Shown: positions 39,398-50,970 of the stretch, piece by piece
Layout of the letters: every line of letters starts with the position of its first letter
How positions within the stretch are numbered: the first letter of the stretch is position 1
Source of the DNA: Saprospiraceae bacterium
Lineage (GTDB): Bacteria > Bacteroidota > Bacteroidia > Chitinophagales > Saprospiraceae
Reading direction: 5' to 3'
Length of the DNA stretch: 64,000 nt
Assembly: GCA_022841345.1 (NCBI GenBank)
Contig: JALHRR010000009.1
Location: forward strand, 1-64,000
Notes under the pieces: model-generated
Told to the model about the DNA's origin: nothing
What the model saw: the letters and a program-made list of their open reading frames with translations, nothing else
Database searches by the model: none
Program-made: the position numbers and the translations under genes

Positions 39398-39640
39398 TTG
39401 AAAACCAAACTTACATTAACCCTCAGTAAGTCTGCAATCGAAGCGGCAAAATCTTATGCTAAGATAACAGGAAGAAGTCTTTCTGAAATTATAGAGAACT
39501 ACCTGATATCCTTAACACAGGAGCACTCTATGAAGCCTTTGTCAACTAAGCTGAGCAAAATAGTTGGTGTCATAACGCTCCCTCAAGATTATGATGAGGA
39601 ATATGAACGCAAAACGAACCTTGAAAAGAAACATTTATAA
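39398..39640 (+). CDS. DUF6364-type antitoxin (ribbon-helix-helix)
   Basis: 80 residues with a TTG start. The N-terminal half is a ribbon-helix-helix (TKLTLTLSKSAIEAAKSYAK, GRSLSEIIENYL). The end DYDEEYERKTNLEKKHL is the usual C-terminus of antitoxins that pair with PIN-domain ribonucleases, so the antitoxin is complete. The expected downstream toxin is reduced to a short remnant at 39640-39714. It would normally bind its operator and neutralise the toxin. Now it is orphaned. Confidence 0.75.
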   Translation: MKTKLTLTLSKSAIEAAKSYAKITGRSLSEIIENYLISLTQEHSMKPLSTKLSKIVGVITLPQDYDEEYERKTNLEKKHL

Positions 39641-40768: not shown

Positions 40769-42238
40769 ATGAATAATTCTTTCACAGACTCACATCAGAC
40801 ACTCAATTTTATCAACGGAGAATTTGTCAGCAGTCAGCATGATTGGCTGGAAGTGATCAGTCCGCTGGATGGATCACAAATTTCAAAAGTAGGTTTGTCC
40901 GGATACTCCGATCTTGATGCTGCAGTTCAGGCTGCATTGAAAGCATATCCTGAATGGTCAGGCAAAACATTAAAAGACAGAGTGCAGGTATTATATAAAT
41001 ATAGAGAGCTCCTGGTAAAATACATGGACGAGCTCACAGAGCTTTGCCACAGAGAAAATGGCAAAACCTGGTCGGAATCCCGCGCAGAAGTTGAAAAAAG
41101 TATAGAGCTAACAGAGTTTGCCTGCTCCATGCCTCAAATCATTTCCAATGAAGTGCAGGAAGTGAGCCGGGGTGTAGAAGTGCGTATCGACAGGAAACCA
41201 CTCGGAGTAGTCGCTTCTATTGCTCCTTTTAATTTCCCAAATATGGTACCTCACTGGACCATTCCCAATGCAATAGCGCTGGGAAATTGCATGATCCTGA
41301 AACCTTCGGAACTGGTTCCCATGAGTTCTACAAGAATAGCTGAAATGCTCAAAGAAGCAGGACTTCCTGATGGTGTTTTCAATATCGTCAATGGAGGCAA
41401 AGAAACGGTGGAAGCCATTTGCGATCATCCGGATATCAAAGCTGTGTCGTTTGTAGGTTCTACGAAAGTAGCCAAGCTCGTATATCAACGTTCAACTGCA
41501 AATTTGAAAAGATGCGTGGCTCTGGGTGGTGCAAAGAATCACCTGATCGTACTTCCTGATGCTCATGAGGAAATGACAGCATCTAATGTAATTGCATCCA
41601 TGTCAGGTTGTGCCGGTCAGCGCTGTATGGCAGCTGCTGTCATGGTCGGTGTGGACAGAATCGAACATATCATCGATCGGATGGTAACCGAAGCTAAAAA
41701 AATTGTCCCGGGTGATAATCTGGGTTCTGTGATCAGCAAGGCTGCAAAGGATAGAATTGAAAAATATATCAATAATGCTGAAGCTGCAGGTGCGAAAGTC
41801 CTTGTGGATGGCAGAAATGCTGTGGTAGCAGGGAAAGAAGGTGGATTTTATGTCGGTCCCACCATCATTGATCATGTAACTCCTGATATGGCAATAGCAA
41901 AGGAAGAAGTTTTTGGGCCTGTTATTTCCATCATCAGAGCAAAGGATCTGAATGAGGCCATTTTAATTGAAAATAGCTCCGGATATGGAAATGCCGCAGC
42001 TGTATTTACGCAAAGTGGTGGCGCAGCTCGTGAAGTGATGGAAAGAGCCAGTGCAGGTATGATCGGTGTAAATATAGGAGTTCCCGTTCCACGCGAACCT
42101 TTTCCATTCGGTGGCTGGAATGATTCAAAATTTGGGGTTTGTGATATTACAGGAAAAAGCTCCATAGAATTTTGGACACAGAATAAGAAAACCTCAGTGA
42201 AGTGGAATGCGGAAGCCAAGACGAATTGGATGAGCTAG
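40769..42238 (+). CDS. mmsA: CoA-acylating (methyl)malonate-semialdehyde dehydrogenase
   Basis: 489 residues of the aldehyde dehydrogenase superfamily. The subgroup is fixed by LGGAKNH near residue 255-262, where other ALDHs carry a general-base Glu, and by the catalytic Cys at about 286 in GCAGQRCMAAAV. The N-terminal INGEFV and the APFNFPNMVPHW block fit as well. It oxidises malonate or methylmalonate semialdehyde with NAD and CoA to acetyl-CoA or propionyl-CoA plus CO2. As first gene before an aminotransferase and the uracil-degradation genes it provides the final step of pyrimidine catabolism (or valine catabolism). Confidence 0.93.
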   Translation: MNNSFTDSHQTLNFINGEFVSSQHDWLEVISPLDGSQISKVGLSGYSDLDAAVQAALKAYPEWSGKTLKDRVQVLYKYRELLVKYMDELTELCHRENGKTWSESRAEVEKSIELTEFACSMPQIISNEVQEVSRGVEVRIDRKPLGVVASIAPFNFPNMVPHWTIPNAIALGNCMILKPSELVPMSSTRIAEMLKEAGLPDGVFNIVNGGKETVEAICDHPDIKAVSFVGSTKVAKLVYQRSTANLKRCVALGGAKNHLIVLPDAHEEMTASNVIASMSGCAGQRCMAAAVMVGVDRIEHIIDRMVTEAKKIVPGDNLGSVISKAAKDRIEKYINNAEAAGAKVLVDGRNAVVAGKEGGFYVGPTIIDHVTPDMAIAKEEVFGPVISIIRAKDLNEAILIENSSGYGNAAAVFTQSGGAAREVMERASAGMIGVNIGVPVPREPFPFGGWNDSKFGVCDITGKSSIEFWTQNKKTSVKWNAEAKTNWMS

Positions 42239-42625: not shown

Positions 42626-43957
42626 ATGAGCGACAACATTATACAACAGAATCTGGATCACACACTTTTTTCATGGTCGAAGCAGGCAGGGATTAATCCT
42701 ATCAGCATTGAAAAGGCAAAAGGGGTTTATTTATATGACAGAAGTGGAAAGAAGTATATTGATTTTTCTTCCCAATTGATGAATGTTAATATCGGGCACG
42801 GAGATCAGCGGATCACAACAGCTGTTGCCCGACAAATGGAGGAAGTCAGTTATGTATTTCCGGGAATGGTCACGGAAGCGCGGGGGATCTTAGGTGCCAA
42901 GCTAGCCGAAATAGCTCCTCCTTCACTTAATAAGACCTTCTTTACACTCGGTGGGGCGGAAGCCATTGAAAATGCTATCAAGCTGGCAAGGATGTACACA
43001 GGCAGGCACAAGATCATAGCTCAATACAGATCTTATCACGGTGGATCATATGGAGCCATTTCTGCTGGTGGTGATCCCCGCAAATTTCCTATGGACAGCC
43101 AGCAGATGCCAAATATACTGCATGTAGAAAATCCTTATTTCTATCGTTGTCCCTGGAATACAAGTTCCATAGAGGAATGTGGCGAAATGGCTGCCCGTAA
43201 TCTGGAGCAAATGGTCATTTATGAAAATCCGGACAGCATAGCTGGTATACTGATGGAAGGTGAATCGGGTTCATCAGGATGTATTAAATATCCTCCCAAT
43301 TATTGGAAACTGGTCAGGGAGATTTGTGATAAATATGGGATCGTATTAATTGCAGACGAAGTCATGAGCGGATTTGGAAGAACCGGTAAAATGTTTGCTG
43401 TGGAGCATCATGGTGTCGAACCTGACATGATTACAATGGCTAAGGGAATTACATCCGGATATATTCCTTTGGGTGGATTAATGGTCAATGATACTATTGC
43501 AAAACATTATGATAATAATATGATGGCTATAGGACTGACTTACTCAGCTCATGCCGTGGCATGCGCGGCAGCAGTTGAGAATATTAGAATACTACAGGAG
43601 GATAAAATGGTGGAAAATGCGGCAAGTATGGGTAAATATGTAGAAGCGAAAGTGGAGGAACTAAAAGAAAAGCATCCATCCATCGGAGATTTTAGAAATA
43701 CAGGATTATTGGGTTGTATTGAATATGTAAAGAACAGAAAAACAAAGGAAGCCACCACCCCATTCAATGCAAAACCTGCTGATTCTGAAGCGAGTAACAG
43801 AATGGCAGCTAAAGTCAGGGAAGCGGGAATGTTTACATTCGTTCGCTGGAATTACATTTTTGTGGCTCCACCTCTGATGGTTACTGAAGCTCAGATCGAT
43901 GAGGGTTTTGAGATTATTTCTCAGGCAAGTGCTATTGCGGATGAATATTGTTATTAA
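42626..43957 (+). CDS. Class III aminotransferase, probable beta-alanine:2-oxoacid type
   Basis: 443 residues, fold type I, PLP-dependent. The Schiff-base lysine is K273 in TMAKGITSGYIPLGG. The cofactor Asp lies in LIADEVMSGFGRTGK, with the phosphate-binding GGAEAIENAIKLAR and RSYHGGSYGA before it. It moves the amino group of beta-alanine or 3-aminoisobutyrate to a 2-oxo acid, producing the semialdehyde that MmsA consumes. The assignment to beta-amino acids rests on the operon (mmsA before, pyrimidine genes after). By sequence alone another omega-aminotransferase role is possible. Confidence 0.88.
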   Translation: MSDNIIQQNLDHTLFSWSKQAGINPISIEKAKGVYLYDRSGKKYIDFSSQLMNVNIGHGDQRITTAVARQMEEVSYVFPGMVTEARGILGAKLAEIAPPSLNKTFFTLGGAEAIENAIKLARMYTGRHKIIAQYRSYHGGSYGAISAGGDPRKFPMDSQQMPNILHVENPYFYRCPWNTSSIEECGEMAARNLEQMVIYENPDSIAGILMEGESGSSGCIKYPPNYWKLVREICDKYGIVLIADEVMSGFGRTGKMFAVEHHGVEPDMITMAKGITSGYIPLGGLMVNDTIAKHYDNNMMAIGLTYSAHAVACAAAVENIRILQEDKMVENAASMGKYVEAKVEELKEKHPSIGDFRNTGLLGCIEYVKNRKTKEATTPFNAKPADSEASNRMAAKVREAGMFTFVRWNYIFVAPPLMVTEAQIDEGFEIISQASAIADEYCY

Positions 43958-44008: not shown

Positions 44009-45757
44009 ATGAATGAAAACCTCTACCTCCCAACTTCCCTGGATGATTCCCCCCTGAATGGAAAGGACATGGCTCCTATTCCGCATGAAAAGCGGACCTG
44101 GTCCATGTGGAATATGACAGCGCTTTGGGTAGGAATGGCGGTTTGTATTCCAACTTACTTGCTGGCATCCAATATGATTCAATCGGGCTTAAGCTGGATG
44201 GCCGCACTGATAATCATTGCACTCGCCAACTTGGTCATCACCTTACCCATGGTACTCAGCGGACATGCCGGTGTCAAATATGGTATACCTTTCCCTGTAT
44301 TTGGTAGAGCAAGTTTTGGAATATATGGCGTTCATATCGCTTCACTTGTGAGAGGGATAGTGGCATGTGGCTGGTTTGGGATTCAGACCTGGGTAGGAGG
44401 TCTTGCATTTTATTCAATTTATAATATTGTCACCGGACAGCCGGGTTCCGCAGATTTGGATGCCGAAAAATTTATAGGATTCGGGTTATTCTGGTTGATC
44501 AATTTGTATTTCATTTGGAAAGGAACGGAATCCATCAAATGGCTGGAGAATTATTCAGCCCCGATTCTTTTATTGATAGGGATAGCTCTAATTGTTTGGG
44601 GATATCAGAAAGTAGGAAGTTTTTCTGAAGTTCTGGAACAAGGAAAACAACTGCAAATGAGAACTGCGGTCATTCAACCGGTTGAAGATGATACTACAAA
44701 TTACCAGATGACTTTGAGCGTTATTTCAGATACAGACGGAAATCCAAAAGCTACTGAGGTAAATATCTGGATCCCTACAGATCAGGGGCCGGTAGAATCC
44801 GGGTGGCGGGCAGTTCAAACTCAGGTTTCAGTTGTCCCTATCCCCTATTCTCCTGATTATCACTCTGGTAAATCACCTGTGAAAGTGCAATTTCGGGATG
44901 CTGATAAAGTAATGTCATCTATCATCTCAGTGTTACCTGAGCATCATACCAATAAACCTAAACCCGGTATATTAACTTACCTGATTTGGTTTACAGCAAT
45001 GGTTGGATTCTGGGCAACAATGGCTATCAGTATTTCTGATATCACCCGCTGGTCAAAGAATCAAAAGGATCAGACCAGAGGCCAGTTTTTAGGATTACCG
45101 ACGACTATGACCTTTTATTCATTCGTAGCCATTTTTGTCACAAGTGCTGCTATCATCGCATTCAAAGATATTCTGATTGTTGAGGACACACCCTGGGATC
45201 CTGTCTCTTTATTAGCAAGGTTTAAAGACCCTGTAGTGGTTGTCATTGCTCAAATTGCTTTAATAATCGCAACACTGAGTACCAATATTGCTGCAAATGT
45301 CATTGCTCCCGCAAATGCCATTTCGAATGTCCTGCCTCAGAAAATAAGCTTCAGATCAGGTGGTATGATTGCGGCTATAGTAGGTATTTTGGCATGCCCA
45401 TGGTGGATCATGAATGATATCGGAGCTATTCTGGTATTTGTAAGTGGATTGTTGGGGCCGGTATTGGGGATTGTTCTGTGTGATTATTTTATCATTCGAA
45501 ACAAGAAACTTGCTTTAGCCGATCTTTATATGACCAATGGAATCTACGCTTATGGTGGAAGTGGCTTTAACAAAGCAGCGCTTATAGCCTTGACTTCAGG
45601 AGTCCTCGTTGCTTTAGTTGGTTACTGGGTTCCTGCTTTGAGCTTTTTGTACACATTATCCTGGTTTACCGGATTCGGGGTTGCATTTTTAATCTATTAT
45701 ATTTTGATGAAAGATAAATTAGAGATAAAATCTGTGCCCGATCCTGTGTCAATTTAA
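44009..45757 (+). CDS. NCS1-family nucleobase transporter with large loop insertion
   Basis: 582 residues, about 90-100 longer than usual NCS1 proteins. Twelve spans are predicted. Family blocks include WNMTALWVGMAVCIPTYLLA (span 1), CGWFGIQTWVGGLAFYSIY (span 3), GTESIKWLENYSAPILLLIG (span 5), FTAMVGFWATMAISISDITR (span 6), and NIAANVIAPANAISN (span 8). Between spans 5 and 6 about 105 residues (214-318, coding 44648-44963) form a soluble insertion with beta-strand character (YQMTLSVISDTDGNPKATEV, VKVQFRDADKVMSSIISVLP). With a cytoplasmic N-terminus this loop faces the periplasm. Placed between aminotransferase and dihydropyrimidinase genes, it probably imports uracil, thymine or a hydropyrimidine with a cation. 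Confidence 0.92.
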   Translation: MNENLYLPTSLDDSPLNGKDMAPIPHEKRTWSMWNMTALWVGMAVCIPTYLLASNMIQSGLSWMAALIIIALANLVITLPMVLSGHAGVKYGIPFPVFGRASFGIYGVHIASLVRGIVACGWFGIQTWVGGLAFYSIYNIVTGQPGSADLDAEKFIGFGLFWLINLYFIWKGTESIKWLENYSAPILLLIGIALIVWGYQKVGSFSEVLEQGKQLQMRTAVIQPVEDDTTNYQMTLSVISDTDGNPKATEVNIWIPTDQGPVESGWRAVQTQVSVVPIPYSPDYHSGKSPVKVQFRDADKVMSSIISVLPEHHTNKPKPGILTYLIWFTAMVGFWATMAISISDITRWSKNQKDQTRGQFLGLPTTMTFYSFVAIFVTSAAIIAFKDILIVEDTPWDPVSLLARFKDPVVVVIAQIALIIATLSTNIAANVIAPANAISNVLPQKISFRSGGMIAAIVGILACPWWIMNDIGAILVFVSGLLGPVLGIVLCDYFIIRNKKLALADLYMTNGIYAYGGSGFNKAALIALTSGVLVALVGYWVPALSFLYTLSWFTGFGVAFLIYYILMKDKLEIKSVPDPVSI

Positions 45758-45768
45758 AAAGAAATAAT

Positions 45769-47151
45769 ATGTCCATACTGATTAAAAATGGAAGAATCGT
45801 GACTGCTGCTGAAGACTATGTAGCAGATCTATTTGTCAAAGACGGAAAAGTGCACAGCATCGGATTGAACCTGAATGTGGAAGCGGATCATGTGATAGAC
45901 GCAACGGATAGATTAGTTTTGCCGGGAGGCATTGATCCTCACGTGCATCTGGACATGCCATTTATGGGCACCTATTCCAGTGATGATTACACCACCGGTA
46001 CCAGAGCAGCACTATTTGGCGGCACTACAACTGTGATTGATTTTATACTTCAAACTCAGGGAGATACACTTCACAATGCGCTCAAAACCTGGCAGAAAAA
46101 ATCTGAAGGCAAAGCAATCGGAGATTATTCCTATCATATGGCGGTTACTGATTTCAATGAAGAGGTTGCAAAGGAGGTGATCGAAATGATTGAAAAGGAA
46201 GGAATTACATCTTTTAAAACCTTTATGGCCTACAAAGGGGCATTGATGATAGACGACGGTCAGATGATCAGATTGATGAAAGTCGTAAAAGAACATGGTG
46301 GACTGGTCACTGTACATGCTACCAATGGAGATATGATTGATACTTTGATTGCAAAACATTTATCTGAAGGAAAAACTTCACCGCTTTATCATTATTTGTC
46401 TCAGCCGGAAGTTACTGAGGCTGAAGCTTCCGCCAGATTCTGTGATATGCTGCATTATACCGGTTGTACCGGATACATAGTACACATGACATGCGAAGGT
46501 GCATTAAATGCTGTCAGAAGAGCAGCGCTGCGTAATCAAAGAGTATTCGTAGAAACCTGTCCGCAATATTTGACTGTGGATACCTCTGTGTATGATAATG
46601 GATTTGAAAGTGCCAAATGGGTCATGAGTCCGCCTATCAGAGAAAAGAAAGATCAGGCAGCTCTATGGTCCGGACTTCAGCAGGGTCTTGTAAATGTGGT
46701 AGGAACAGATCATTGCCCTTTCTCCTGGGAACAAAAACAGATGGGTCGTGATAATTTTGCTAAAATTCCCAACGGACACCCCGCTATTGAGCACCGTATG
46801 GAAATCATGTTTTCTGAGGGAGTTGAAAAAGGTCGGATTTCATTGCAAAAATATGTGGAAGTTACTGCCACTAATCCGGCAAAAATATTCGGGATGTATC
46901 CGCAGAAAGGCACCCTTGCAGTCGGATCAGATGCGGACATAGTAATCTTCAATCCAAACACAAAGCATACCATATCGAAGGATACCCATCATATGAATGT
47001 TGATTATTCCAGTTATGAAGGCTGGAAATTGACCGGCAAAACTGAAACCGTCCTGTTGCGAGGTGAAATCGCCATCCAAAATGAAAAATGCTATCTTGAA
47101 CCCGGACATGGACGCTTCGTGAGACGGGGCAAGACCTCATATACGGTATAA
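45769..47151 (+). CDS. Dihydropyrimidinase
   Basis: 460 residues of the cyclic amidohydrolase group. Metal ligands are H58 and H60 in PHVHLDMPF, the carbamylated Lys K150 in TSFKTFMAYKG, later His residues (VTVHATNGD, YIVHMTC) and the catalytic Asp in VGTDHCPF. It hydrolyses 5,6-dihydrouracil or dihydrothymine to N-carbamoyl-beta-amino acids. It begins 11 bases after the permease stop. D-hydantoinase is the biochemical alternative, but the neighbouring genes make the pyrimidine role the better one. Confidence 0.94.
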   Translation: MSILIKNGRIVTAAEDYVADLFVKDGKVHSIGLNLNVEADHVIDATDRLVLPGGIDPHVHLDMPFMGTYSSDDYTTGTRAALFGGTTTVIDFILQTQGDTLHNALKTWQKKSEGKAIGDYSYHMAVTDFNEEVAKEVIEMIEKEGITSFKTFMAYKGALMIDDGQMIRLMKVVKEHGGLVTVHATNGDMIDTLIAKHLSEGKTSPLYHYLSQPEVTEAEASARFCDMLHYTGCTGYIVHMTCEGALNAVRRAALRNQRVFVETCPQYLTVDTSVYDNGFESAKWVMSPPIREKKDQAALWSGLQQGLVNVVGTDHCPFSWEQKQMGRDNFAKIPNGHPAIEHRMEIMFSEGVEKGRISLQKYVEVTATNPAKIFGMYPQKGTLAVGSDADIVIFNPNTKHTISKDTHHMNVDYSSYEGWKLTGKTETVLLRGEIAIQNEKCYLEPGHGRFVRRGKTSYTV

Positions 47152-47237: not shown

Positions 47238-48104
47238 ATGCCACGAATTATCAAATCCGGTCTGATCCAAATGAGTCTTCCCATGACAGAAGGCGAAGGA
47301 AGCATCTCTGAGATCATGACAGCTATGACAGACAAACATCTCCCATATATAGAAGAAGCCGGTGAAAAAGGTGTTCAAATCCTCTGTATGCAGGAGATAT
47401 TCAATACACCTTACTTCTGTCCCGGTCAGGATAAAAGCTGGTATGCATCCGCAGAAACTGTCCCTGGTCCCACAACTGAATTGATGCAGCAATATGCCAA
47501 AAAATACCAAATGGTCATTATAGTCCCAATCTATGAGCGGGAACAAGCAGGTGTGTACTACAATACTGCCGCTGTGATTGATGCAGACGGAACTTATCTC
47601 GGTAAATACCGTAAAAACCATATCCCTCACACCTCAGGATTCTGGGAAAAATTCTTTTTCAAACCCGGCAACCTGGGATATCCGGTTTTTCAAACAAAAT
47701 ATGCTAAAGTTGGAGTCTATATCTGTTATGACCGTCATTTCCCGGAAGGTGCCAGAATATTTGGTTTGAACGGAGCAGAAATCGTTTACAATCCTTCAGC
47801 AACGGTCGCCGGACTTTCACAATATCTCTGGAAACTGGAACAACCTGCACATGCCGCAGCTAATGGATATTTTATGGGCTGTATTAATAGGGTCGGTGAA
47901 GAAAAGCCATGGAATCTGGGTAGGTTTTATGGAACATCCTACTTTGTGGATCCGCGTGGTCAAATCATAGCTGAAGCTTCTGAATATAATGATGAACTAT
48001 TAATTACATCATTTGATCTGGATATGATCGACGAAGTTCGTTCAACCTGGCAATTTTTCCGGGACCGCAGACCTGAAACATATGGCAGGATTACTGATCT
48101 CTGA
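47238..48104 (+). CDS. Beta-ureidopropionase (nitrilase superfamily)
   Basis: 288 residues. The nitrilase triad is present: E53 in CMQEIF, K126 in KYRKNHIPH and C163 in YICYDRHFPEG. The specific stretch YFCPGQDKSWYASAE is typical of beta-ureidopropionase and N-carbamoylputrescine amidase. It cleaves N-carbamoyl-beta-alanine to beta-alanine, ammonia and CO2. Its position between the dihydropyrimidinase and PreT genes supports the first substrate, with N-carbamoylputrescine as the alternative. Confidence 0.92.
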   Translation: MPRIIKSGLIQMSLPMTEGEGSISEIMTAMTDKHLPYIEEAGEKGVQILCMQEIFNTPYFCPGQDKSWYASAETVPGPTTELMQQYAKKYQMVIIVPIYEREQAGVYYNTAAVIDADGTYLGKYRKNHIPHTSGFWEKFFFKPGNLGYPVFQTKYAKVGVYICYDRHFPEGARIFGLNGAEIVYNPSATVAGLSQYLWKLEQPAHAAANGYFMGCINRVGEEKPWNLGRFYGTSYFVDPRGQIIAEASEYNDELLITSFDLDMIDEVRSTWQFFRDRRPETYGRITDL

Positions 48105-48195: not shown

Positions 48196-49524
48196 ATGGC
48201 CGAATATAACAGACCCCAGTCTTCAGAAGAATTCCATCGAAATTTTGAGCAGAAGAAGCCCCTCATGAATGACACTGAGGCATATTATGAAAGCTCAAGA
48301 TGTTTGTTTTGCTATGACGCCCCTTGCGTAACTGCCTGTCCTACAGGTATTGACATACCCTTGTTTATTAAACAGATTCAAACCGGGAATCTCACAGGAT
48401 CGGCAAGAACCATCTATGATTCCAACTGGTTTGGAAATGCCTGTGGCAAAGTCTGCCCTACCAAAGTGCTTTGTGAAGGAGCTTGCGTCTACAATCATCA
48501 GGATATCAAACCCATAGAAATAGGCAGGCTTCAAAATTTTGCAACTATCAGGGTAATCGAAAGCAATAAATCGCTGTATTCTCCGGGGCCTAACAACGGA
48601 ATGAAAATAGCAATCATCGGCGCAGGTCCGGCAGGCATTTCCTGTGCATGTGAATTGAGAACATTGGGTTATCAGGTTGATATTTTTGAGGCAAAAGATA
48701 AACCATCAGGTTTGACAGTCCATGGTACAGCCCCTTACAAGATTACAAACAAGGAAGTACTGGCAGAAATGGATTATTTGCAGGGACAGCTGGGATTTCA
48801 GGTATATTATAATACACCGGTTAGCAATGCGGAGCAATTAAGGGATATTGAAAAAGAATATGATGCAATATTTCTGGGAGTAGGATTGGGACCGACAGCT
48901 GATCTGGGTCTTCCCGGAGATGACAAGGAAAATGTCATAGGAGCCGTTGAATTTGTAGAAGCACTCAGAATGAAAGAACATTTAGTGCAAGTCCCTGATA
49001 AGGTTATAGTTCTGGGCGGAGGGAATACAGCCATGGATGCCGCTTCCGAAAGTTGCCGCATGGGCGCACAGGAAGTGACGCTGGCATACCGTCGTTCAAA
49101 AGATGAAATGGGAGCTTATGGTTTTGAGTATGAATTAGCTAAAAATGCAGGAGCAAAAGGGCTTTTTAATGTTCAGCCCCTGGAGATTCTGGGAAATGGC
49201 TCAGTAAGCGGCGTTAAGTTTATCAAAACACAATCTGTTAATGGCCAATTGCAGGTAATTGAAGGATCTGAGTTTACAATGGAATGTGATATGGTAATTA
49301 AAGCCACCGGACAAGCGAAAATGGGTAATTTATTTGCATTAATTGAAGGAATGGACCTGGACCGAAGTAAAAGGATCGTTGTAAATCCCGTGACTTTCCA
49401 GAGTACGAATCCAAAGTATTTCGCAGGTGGGGATGCTGTCAATGGTGGAGCCGAAGTGGTCAATGGTGCTCATGATGGCAAAGCGGCAGCTAAGGGAATT
49501 CACCAATGGATCAATAATCTGTAA
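48196..49524 (+). CDS. preT: NAD(P)H-dependent dihydropyrimidine dehydrogenase, subunit PreT
   Basis: 442 residues, equivalent to the N-terminal half of mammalian DPD. The N-terminal Fe-S domain carries Cys at 36, 39, 44 and 48 (CLFCYDAPCVTACP) and at 83, 87, 93 and 97. The FAD site is GAGPAG at 142-147, and the NAD(P) site is VLGGGNTAMDAA. The GGDAVNGGAEVVNGAHDGK end is typical of GltD-like flavoproteins. It passes electrons from NAD(P)H to PreA for reduction of uracil and thymine. It is paired with preA 99 bases downstream. Confidence 0.93.
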   Translation: MAEYNRPQSSEEFHRNFEQKKPLMNDTEAYYESSRCLFCYDAPCVTACPTGIDIPLFIKQIQTGNLTGSARTIYDSNWFGNACGKVCPTKVLCEGACVYNHQDIKPIEIGRLQNFATIRVIESNKSLYSPGPNNGMKIAIIGAGPAGISCACELRTLGYQVDIFEAKDKPSGLTVHGTAPYKITNKEVLAEMDYLQGQLGFQVYYNTPVSNAEQLRDIEKEYDAIFLGVGLGPTADLGLPGDDKENVIGAVEFVEALRMKEHLVQVPDKVIVLGGGNTAMDAASESCRMGAQEVTLAYRRSKDEMGAYGFEYELAKNAGAKGLFNVQPLEILGNGSVSGVKFIKTQSVNGQLQVIEGSEFTMECDMVIKATGQAKMGNLFALIEGMDLDRSKRIVVNPVTFQSTNPKYFAGGDAVNGGAEVVNGAHDGKAAAKGIHQWINNL

Positions 49525-49623: not shown

Positions 49624-50970
49624 ATGGCTGACTTATCTATCAATTTCGCGGGTATCAAAGCACCGAATCCTTTTTGGCTGGCTTCTGCCCCTCCGACCAA
49701 TACCGGTTATCAAATCATGAAAGCATTTGATGCGGGTTGGGGTGGTGCTGTGTGGAAGACACTGGGCGTGCCCGTTGTGAATGTGTCCAGCAGGTATGGT
49801 TCTGTCAATTACAGAGACAGCCGGATGATGGGATTCAATAATATCGAGCTTATCTCCGATCGACCACTAGCAGATAATCTCAGAGAAATAGAAGAAGTTA
49901 AAAAGTATTTCCCGGATCATGCAGTCATTGCTTCATTGATGGTAGAAAGTCGCGCTGAATGGATTCAAATTATAAAAGACTGTGAAAATGCAGGAGCTGA
50001 CGGACTCGAACTCAATTTTGGATGTCCCCACGGAATGTGCGAGAGAGGAATGGGATCCGCTGTTGGACAGGAACCGGAAGTACTAAAGACAATTGTCGGC
50101 TGGGTAATGGAAGCTGCTAATATTCCCGTAATAACAAAACTATCGCCTAATATCAGTCATATCACTGATCCCGGAAGAGCAGCAGTCGCAGGCGGAACGG
50201 ACGCTATTTCACTGGTTAATACCTTTAAGAGTATTGTGGGAATCAATCTGGATACTTATGCCCCTTACCCTGAAGTGGATGGATCGGGTACCAATGGTGG
50301 TTATTGCGGCCCGGCAGTCAAGCCCATTGCATTGAACATGGTCAAAGAACTTGCTCAGGATTATATCACAAAGAACACCCCCATCAGCGGTATTGGAGGT
50401 ATTGAAAATTGGCGGGATGTTGTGGAATATATTTTACTCGGATGCGGGTCTGTTCAGGTCTGTACAGCTGTGATGCATTATGGGTTTGGAATAGTGAGAG
50501 AATTGGAATCAGGAGTGCTGCAGTTTATGCGGGATAAAGGCTATAATACTATTGAAGATTTTCGCGGTAAAGCACTACCTAATGTCAAAGAATGGAAAGA
50601 CTTGAATTTAAAGCACAAAGTTGTAGCAGATATAAATGTTGAAAAATGCATTGGCTGTCAGCTTTGTTATGCCGCTTGTGAAGATGGAGCGCATCAGGCC
50701 ATCGCATTGTCCGGAGACCTGAATATCCGTATTCCATCCATTATTGAAGAAAATTGTGTAGGATGTAATTTGTGCTCTCTGGTATGCCCTGTTGAGGAAT
50801 GTATAACTATGGTTAAGCGTGACGACGGAACTGAAAGTCTTACCTGGGCCGAACGTACTCAACGTGGAGACGTGCCTGTAACATTTAATGATCCGTTAGC
50901 AGGTGGAATCGGACATCATGTGCCGACTCCGGAGGATGCAATTAAGACTTTTAAGAATCGGAAGATTTGA
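49624..50970 (+). CDS. preA: Dihydropyrimidine dehydrogenase, catalytic subunit PreA
   Basis: 448 residues. The N-terminal FMN barrel (about 1-310) is of dihydroorotate-dehydrogenase type with the pyrimidine loop NFGCPHGMCERGMGSAVGQ at 131-149 and TKLSPNISHI. The C-terminal 2[4Fe-4S] ferredoxin domain has CIGCQLCYAACEDGAHQAI and CVGCNLCSLVCPVEECI. It reduces uracil and thymine to dihydro forms using electrons from PreT. In mammalian DPD the catalytic Cys sits in ACGQ. Here that position is Val (AVGQ), and the loop has another Cys at 139. The gene ends the pathway cluster. Confidence 0.93.
   Translation: MADLSINFAGIKAPNPFWLASAPPTNTGYQIMKAFDAGWGGAVWKTLGVPVVNVSSRYGSVNYRDSRMMGFNNIELISDRPLADNLREIEEVKKYFPDHAVIASLMVESRAEWIQIIKDCENAGADGLELNFGCPHGMCERGMGSAVGQEPEVLKTIVGWVMEAANIPVITKLSPNISHITDPGRAAVAGGTDAISLVNTFKSIVGINLDTYAPYPEVDGSGTNGGYCGPAVKPIALNMVKELAQDYITKNTPISGIGGIENWRDVVEYILLGCGSVQVCTAVMHYGFGIVRELESGVLQFMRDKGYNTIEDFRGKALPNVKEWKDLNLKHKVVADINVEKCIGCQLCYAACEDGAHQAIALSGDLNIRIPSIIEENCVGCNLCSLVCPVEECITMVKRDDGTESLTWAERTQRGDVPVTFNDPLAGGIGHHVPTPEDAIKTFKNRKI

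Follow-up and report, generated by a model that had tools for sequence, protein, structure and literature searches.

A FnIII/Ig-like domain predicted in the TM5-TM6 loop of an NCS1 symporter from a pyrimidine-degradation operon

An NCS1 transporter encoded in the window, the 64,000-nucleotide stretch of a Saprospiraceae genome analysed here (GCA_022841345.1, contig JALHRR010000009.1, positions 1 to 64,000), carries a domain insertion between TM5 and TM6, and such insertions in NCS1 transporters are real, folded and widespread. The third extracellular loop (TM5-TM6) appears to have been expanded to a folded FnIII/Ig-like periplasmic domain, which may sit on EL4 as a cap, steadying or tuning the outer gate of a uracil/thymine-type NCS1 symporter, a reading to which we give a probability of roughly 45%. 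The gene and its two membrane parts are located as follows.

44009-45757, plus strand: NCS1 (PF02133) symporter with insert, 582 aa, recognised by PF02133, Mhp1 and Foldseek matches
44105-44614, plus strand: first repeat, TM1-TM5 (residues 33-202), placed by AlphaFold2 helices, alignment and conservation
44969-45709, plus strand: second repeat and last helices, TM6-TM12 (residues 321-567), placed by the same three means

Membership of the NCS1 family rests on Pfam, fold and binding-site residues. The PF02133 profile matches the protein at E 7e-92 (309 bits, over the Pfam curated cut-off of 23.5) in two pieces, stopping at genome position 44659 and restarting at 44993, which leaves residues 218-328 uncovered. 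TIGR00800 (ncs1, NCBIfam), a model of a single subfamily, is likewise split in two by the insert and scores 308.8 bits, below its curated cut-off of 353.1. Mhp1, the hydantoin symporter of this family (PDB 2jln, 4d1a), aligns at E 4.6e-40, also in two pieces (residues 19-197 with Mhp1 15-185, and 328-547 with Mhp1 213-431); between them lie 130 residues in the window protein versus 27 in Mhp1, at the point where the two inverted repeats join, the place that the original prediction had given for the insert. The AlphaFold2 model of the whole protein (30 sequences, pTM 0.85) has Mhp1 4d1a as its best PDB match by Foldseek (E 5.8e-17, TM-score 0.80 normalised by target), suggesting the same transport fold in a protein that, unlike Mhp1, has a beta-domain in place of a short TM5-TM6 loop. 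Only Mhp1 and CodB represent NCS1 in the PDB sequence search, and these are the solved members named in the available part of PMC9379551. By alignment, S424 and T425 correspond to Mhp1 S312 and T313, and W122, Q126, W335 and N430 to Mhp1 W117, Q121, W220 and N318, four residues whose substrate roles are described in the available part of PMC4195764; W122, Q126 and W335 are kept in all 42 insert-bearing rows and N430 in 41 of 42, with one gap. The membrane motifs had been judged normal, and with its substrate residues kept the protein is indeed an otherwise ordinary NCS1 transporter. Equivalents of the Na2 site, assigned by Mhp1 residue numbers, are conserved or conservatively replaced in insert-bearing rows. 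The window protein would be a sodium-type NCS1 symporter performing ion-coupled uptake, with sodium as the presumed coupling ion. It is the one PF02133 gene found in its genome.

The transporter is flanked by the following genes, all on its strand.

40769-42238, plus strand: CoA-acylating methylmalonate-semialdehyde dehydrogenase (TIGR01722, over cut-off)
42626-43957, plus strand: class III aminotransferase, the gene just before the transporter
45769-47151, plus strand: dihydropyrimidinase (TIGR02033, over cut-off), following the transporter after 11 bases
47238-48104, plus strand: nitrilase-family amidase, by context a putative beta-ureidopropionase
48196-49524, plus strand: PreT-like flavoprotein, presumed dihydropyrimidine dehydrogenase subunit
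49624-50970, plus strand: PreA, NAD-dependent dihydropyrimidine dehydrogenase subunit (NF006183, over cut-off)

Such a gene set constitutes the reductive pyrimidine degradation pathway, and uracil, thymine or their dihydro forms are therefore the likely substrates of the window transporter. The best NCBIfam match of the amidase is N-carbamoylputrescine amidase, under its cut-off, and the matches of the flavoprotein are of the glutamate-synthase-small-subunit type, also under their cut-offs; the PreT-like role is suggested because PreA adjoins. A likely functional counterpart is PA0443 of P. aeruginosa, an NCS1 protein that growth tests tie to thymine, uracil and dihydrouracil (PMC11633122, available part), the likeness being judged by reported substrates. 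By eye, a deaminase-like ORF is common to two of the insert-bearing pyrimidine loci (L022, near 3253 on the plus strand, and L026) and would fit cytosine as a further substrate. A small ORF at 39398-39640 (plus strand) resembles, by eye, a ribbon-helix-helix antitoxin, and the next same-strand ORF of at least 80 aa starts at 40769. Scans of the window for promoters (38 versus 30.4 +/- 5.4) and terminators (7 versus 7.7 +/- 2.7) were uninformative.

Within the transporter, a soluble segment of about 105 residues between TM5 and TM6 had been proposed at 44648-44963 (residues 214-318), beta-rich, periplasmic and no product of a frameshift. These coordinates hold (44648-44962 within ORF 44009-45757), Mhp1 is without the residues in question, and the AlphaFold2 model refines the limits to a helix, a beta-domain and a linker, with TM6 predicted from residue 321.

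44621-44656, plus strand: helix after TM5 (residues 205-216), predicted by AlphaFold2; length 12 in 38 of 38 main-clade rows
44657-44932, plus strand: predicted FnIII/Ig-like beta-sandwich (residues 217-308), from AlphaFold2 and fold matches
44720-44755, plus strand: loop between strands 2 and 3 (residues 238-249) with the motif D-x-x-G-x-x-K-A; length 12-13 in 38 rows
44897-44923, plus strand: loop joining the final two strands (residues 297-305), with S303 in 38 of 38 rows and S304 in 30 of 38; length 8-21
44933-44968, plus strand: return linker to TM6 (residues 309-320), 9-13 residues in 38 rows, of low model confidence

The Mhp1-like helix order and the distribution of charge (one to four K/R in each putative inner loop, none or one in the short outer loops) support a periplasmic location. 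In other genomes the homologues likewise encode the insert within one open frame, so it is not due to a frameshift; rows G006 and G170 each have one TAA flagged inside the matched stretch, yet their open frames run to 600 and 572 aa. A gene-prediction or assembly artefact has a negligible chance of being the explanation: nothing was found in its favour, and it is refuted by homologues with the insert in open frames from independent genomes and two collections.

Predicted alone (AlphaFold2 with 29 sequences), the insert forms an ordered seven-strand beta-sandwich with a mean pLDDT of 89 and a pTM of 0.78, the modelled strands lying at residues 220-225, 228-237, 250-257, 260-268, 273-279, 291-296 and 306-308. 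In the whole-protein model most ten-residue blocks of the insert have pLDDT 84-94, with dips to 79 (221-230) and 71 (281-290), and the return linker falls to 59 (311-320). The best Foldseek match of the insert is a DSCAML1 FnIII domain (E 6.8e-3) and the best VIA match is FnIII domain 2 of CD148 (Z 7.7), tied with other Ig-like folds; among the 50 best matches per search FnIII/Ig-like modules predominate. As no Foldseek match falls under E 1e-3, and VIA Z scores of 7-8 can reflect merely a common arrangement, FnIII/Ig-like is used here as a fold label only. Sequence searches with the insert alone are in keeping with this: no Pfam family covers it, and it yields only scattered sub-threshold Pfam matches. 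The fn3 profile (PF00041) matches neither the insert nor figures among the 15 families matched by 29 members at E <=1, and Y_Y_Y (PF07495), a domain of sensor kinases, is matched below cut-off by one of 29 members (E 0.067). A derivation from the host's own Y_Y_Y or fn3 domains was considered and is unsupported, the hhalign probabilities being 23.8 for Y_Y_Y, a weak resemblance, and 1.9 for the fn3 domains of the same genome. Against the PDB, the insert profile has its best match at E 0.05 (Pvc7), and the FnIII regions that it matches in a glucanase (0.16) and in IFNAR1 (0.71) are leads only; an LPXTG surface protein hit by sequence search (whole-sequence E 0.0011) consists of two weak stretches of E 2-8 each and was dismissed as chance. 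The sole match to the domain in its own genome at E <=1 is the insert itself. Of 100 related genomes, 15 match the insert profile at E 0.01, 13 of them inside NCS1 genes, and the other two matches are weak. One is a LytS-type histidine kinase (L144, 1011-1241, minus strand, G478), matched at E 0.003 before a membrane segment; the kinase stretch also aligns with Y_Y_Y domains and by eye has a W ... QFR ... S pattern in common. The other is a BlaR1/M56-type protein (L143, 115-2697, plus strand, G011), whose C-terminal part shows, by eye, a long run of repeats of about 30 residues around 'IHDV'.

The same insert recurs in NCS1 proteins of other Bacteroidota. The TM5-TM6 loop is bimodal among 114 distinct relatives (at least 450 aa, L044 excepted), with 106-139 residues in 42, 23-31 in 72, and none between. 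In a scan of one genome from each of 84,980 species, 30 of the 80 best loci carry the insert (L021-L049 and L053; L009 and L032 are identical proteins, and contig ends truncate L044, L049 and L053), a list that favours insert-bearing proteins because its order reflects similarity to the query. An evenly drawn sample of 395 genomes from the phylum included 43 with a match, eight with the insert (own genome included), 30 with an insert-free protein and five with weak partial matches, and 12 of the 40 nearest-relative genomes (own included) gave matches, eight with and four without. The insert-bearing loci bear eight phylum labels, namely Bacteroidota, Balneolota, Spirochaetota, Acidobacteriota, Pseudomonadota, Myxococcota, Planctomycetota and Hydrogenedentota; outside Bacteroidota each label comes from one or two metagenome bins, and binning errors may account for some of them. 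It had been allowed that the insert might prove a common, already described variant: it is widespread, but no description of such an NCS1 insert was found in the open-access papers searched, judged by title, opening of the abstract and term counts, and it is not described in the available parts of PMC3924187 and PMC13390362. Nor is it disordered and unconserved, given the pLDDT of 89 alone and the likeness by profile of the inserts of two clades.

These two clades, one of 38 proteins (SH-aLRT 100) and one of four (L045-L048, SH-aLRT 96), require two insert changes on a tree built without the insert columns. Their inserts resemble each other by hhalign (probability 96.8, E 2e-10), although the small-clade profile comprises five rows including the partial L053, and both profiles start at a conserved helix end, which raises the score. 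Holding all 42 insert-bearing proteins together is not rejected by the AU test (p 0.35), consistent with a single origin. An outgroup tree with E. coli AllW and the EL4 columns removed lowered support for the clade of 38 to 89 and gave four insert changes; we discarded this rooting, as the outgroup branch (length 10) is too long to trust. Since the loop is short both in Mhp1 and in AllW (24 residues), the basal event was likely an insertion and not a loss, to judge from these sequences. Three genomes with the same genus code (G178, G116 and G229) are mixed, one having an insert-bearing transporter and the others insert-free ones, which points to gene replacement or exchange.

Sequence change is much faster in the insert than in the membrane parts, yet the insert is under purifying selection, its dN/dS being below one. 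The most frequent residue has a mean frequency of 0.32 in the insert versus 0.74 and 0.68 in the membrane halves. For the three closest pairs, insert identity is 0.89, 0.85 and 0.71 versus 0.91-0.99 in the membrane parts, dN is 0.054-0.157 versus 0.002-0.050, and dN/dS is 0.32, 0.135 and 0.30 versus 0.007-0.096. In the 19 pairs listed after these, identity is 26-50% in the insert and 76-91% in the membrane parts. This divergence and the small number of conserved residues argue against a ligand-capturing domain that binds substrate before transport, as does the prevalence of FnIII/Ig-like modules among the 50 best fold matches per search; with only the outer-side position and retention of W266 (36 of 38 rows) to favour it, such a role is very unlikely. 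The residues conserved in the 38 main-clade rows are S303 (38), A248 (37), K247 and W266 (36 each) and G244 (35), and there is one cysteine in 42 inserts. Besides the two loops listed above, the loop at 280-290 varies in length (5-18). The loops 238-249, 269-272 and 297-305 would, with an FnIII topology, share the chain-entry pole next to TM5. Mean entropy is 2.20 bits in these predicted membrane-side loops (25 columns), 2.99 in the far-pole loops (15 columns) and 2.59 in the strands; the two sets of loops differ with p 0.004 (rank test) and 0.002 (permutation), values that are post hoc because the loops were grouped once the conserved motifs were known.

A second difference between the two groups of transporters lies between TM7 and TM8.

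45164-45193, plus strand: EL4 stretch 386-391, a gap in insert-free relatives, and P395, from the alignment rows

Segment 377-396 of EL4 is 20 residues long in all 41 insert-bearing rows counted (L044, not among them, shows the long form) versus 14 (70 of 72) or 15 (2 of 72) in insert-free rows, and is thus five or six residues longer with the insert. P395 is present in all 38 main-clade rows and all four of L045-L048, whereas 92% of insert-free rows have Ile in this column. Part of this contrast is the insert-free group's own shortness, as EL4 of Mhp1 is only three residues shorter than that of the window protein (HMMER alignment), and the sequences suggest that EL4 may have moved in both groups. 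The co-occurrence of insert and long EL4 may itself reflect common descent, since the AU test leaves room for one origin of the insert.

Among the lid, ligand-capture and partner-docking roles originally suggested, a lid or cap fits best, because the longer EL4 co-occurs and the conserved loops lie at the predicted membrane-side pole. Through the loops predicted to face the membrane (D-x-x-G-x-x-K-A and S-S), the domain would dock on the outer face of the same transporter, most probably on the longer EL4, and as a built-in cap could steady or tune outer-gate opening or the stability of the outward-facing state. Against this may be set the fast drift, the possible common descent, the length variation of loop 297-305 and the existence of insert-free transporters in the same operon slot. 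Seven relatives have the order aminotransferase, insert-free NCS1, dihydropyrimidinase (L011-L018, from four genomes, and L121, L126 and L129), with aminotransferases 62-65% identical to that of the window in six and 35-39% in G020. Such insert-free transporters (e.g. L013, L014, L121, L126 and L129) are 44-49% identical to the window protein in the best segment and have the same substrate-site residues, but differ in the 23-31-residue loop, the shorter EL4 and, mostly, Ile at the P395 column; the insert is therefore not needed for the pathway. The main rival to the cap is accordingly a passive or stabilising decoration that entered a tolerant loop and folds by itself, so that its loss would destabilise the protein with no tuning of transport. 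These same slot-mates, the rapid drift with the fold kept and the large length variation of some insert loops speak for it, and it is a real if less probable possibility. It sits poorly with the absence of intermediate loop lengths among the 114 relatives, the invariant S303 and near-invariant K247 and A248, the accompanying change in EL4, and retention of the insert throughout the 38-row clade (SH-aLRT 100, or 89 with the outgroup) under several phylum labels.

Periplasmic FnIII/Ig-like domains often bind proteins, and rapidly changing loops could track a changing partner, so that the insert might instead dock a periplasmic or outer-membrane partner handing over pyrimidines. We consider this improbable, as no extra gene is common to many insert-bearing loci (L021-L048 in the 114-row set, ORFs of at least 150 aa). 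The largest of the 12 largest non-operon ORF clusters spans six loci, the top four are by eye antisense shadow ORFs, and the rest span two loci each; the comparison is local to the loci, and a partner could be encoded elsewhere. Homologues of other operon genes are present on 21 of the 30 insert-bearing contig loci and none on nine, among which L024, L029 and L046 are on contigs of less than 6 kb and L053 is cut just upstream.

The cap reading has a parallel in KCC-type cotransporters, which have a 5+5 inverted-repeat fold and a domain at TM5-TM6 (EL3), as does the window protein. In KCC4, according to the available part of PMC7200160, EL3 and EL4 pack as an ectodomain above the outer gate that covers about two thirds of the outer surface, and several mutations of ectodomain contacts lower transport while a milder one does not. 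KCCs are a different family, whose ectodomain combines short helices and a small sheet with disulfides and N-glycans, in contrast to the predicted seven-strand, almost cysteine-free sandwich, and where KCC4 joins EL3 with EL4, here the insert and longer EL4 co-occur and would be in contact. It is conceivable, though on balance doubtful, that a bacterial nucleobase symporter lineage arrived independently at the KCC-style arrangement, with an EL3 domain coupled to a longer EL4 to regulate the outer gate from within, and that this was acquired once or twice, or passed between lineages, and then retained in several phyla. For annotation, such proteins are broken up by family models and may fall short of a curated cut-off. 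NCS1 is a model family for alternating access, and the insert-bearing lineage beside insert-free relatives in the same operon slot offers a natural experiment on how an extracellular domain may tune an outer gate.
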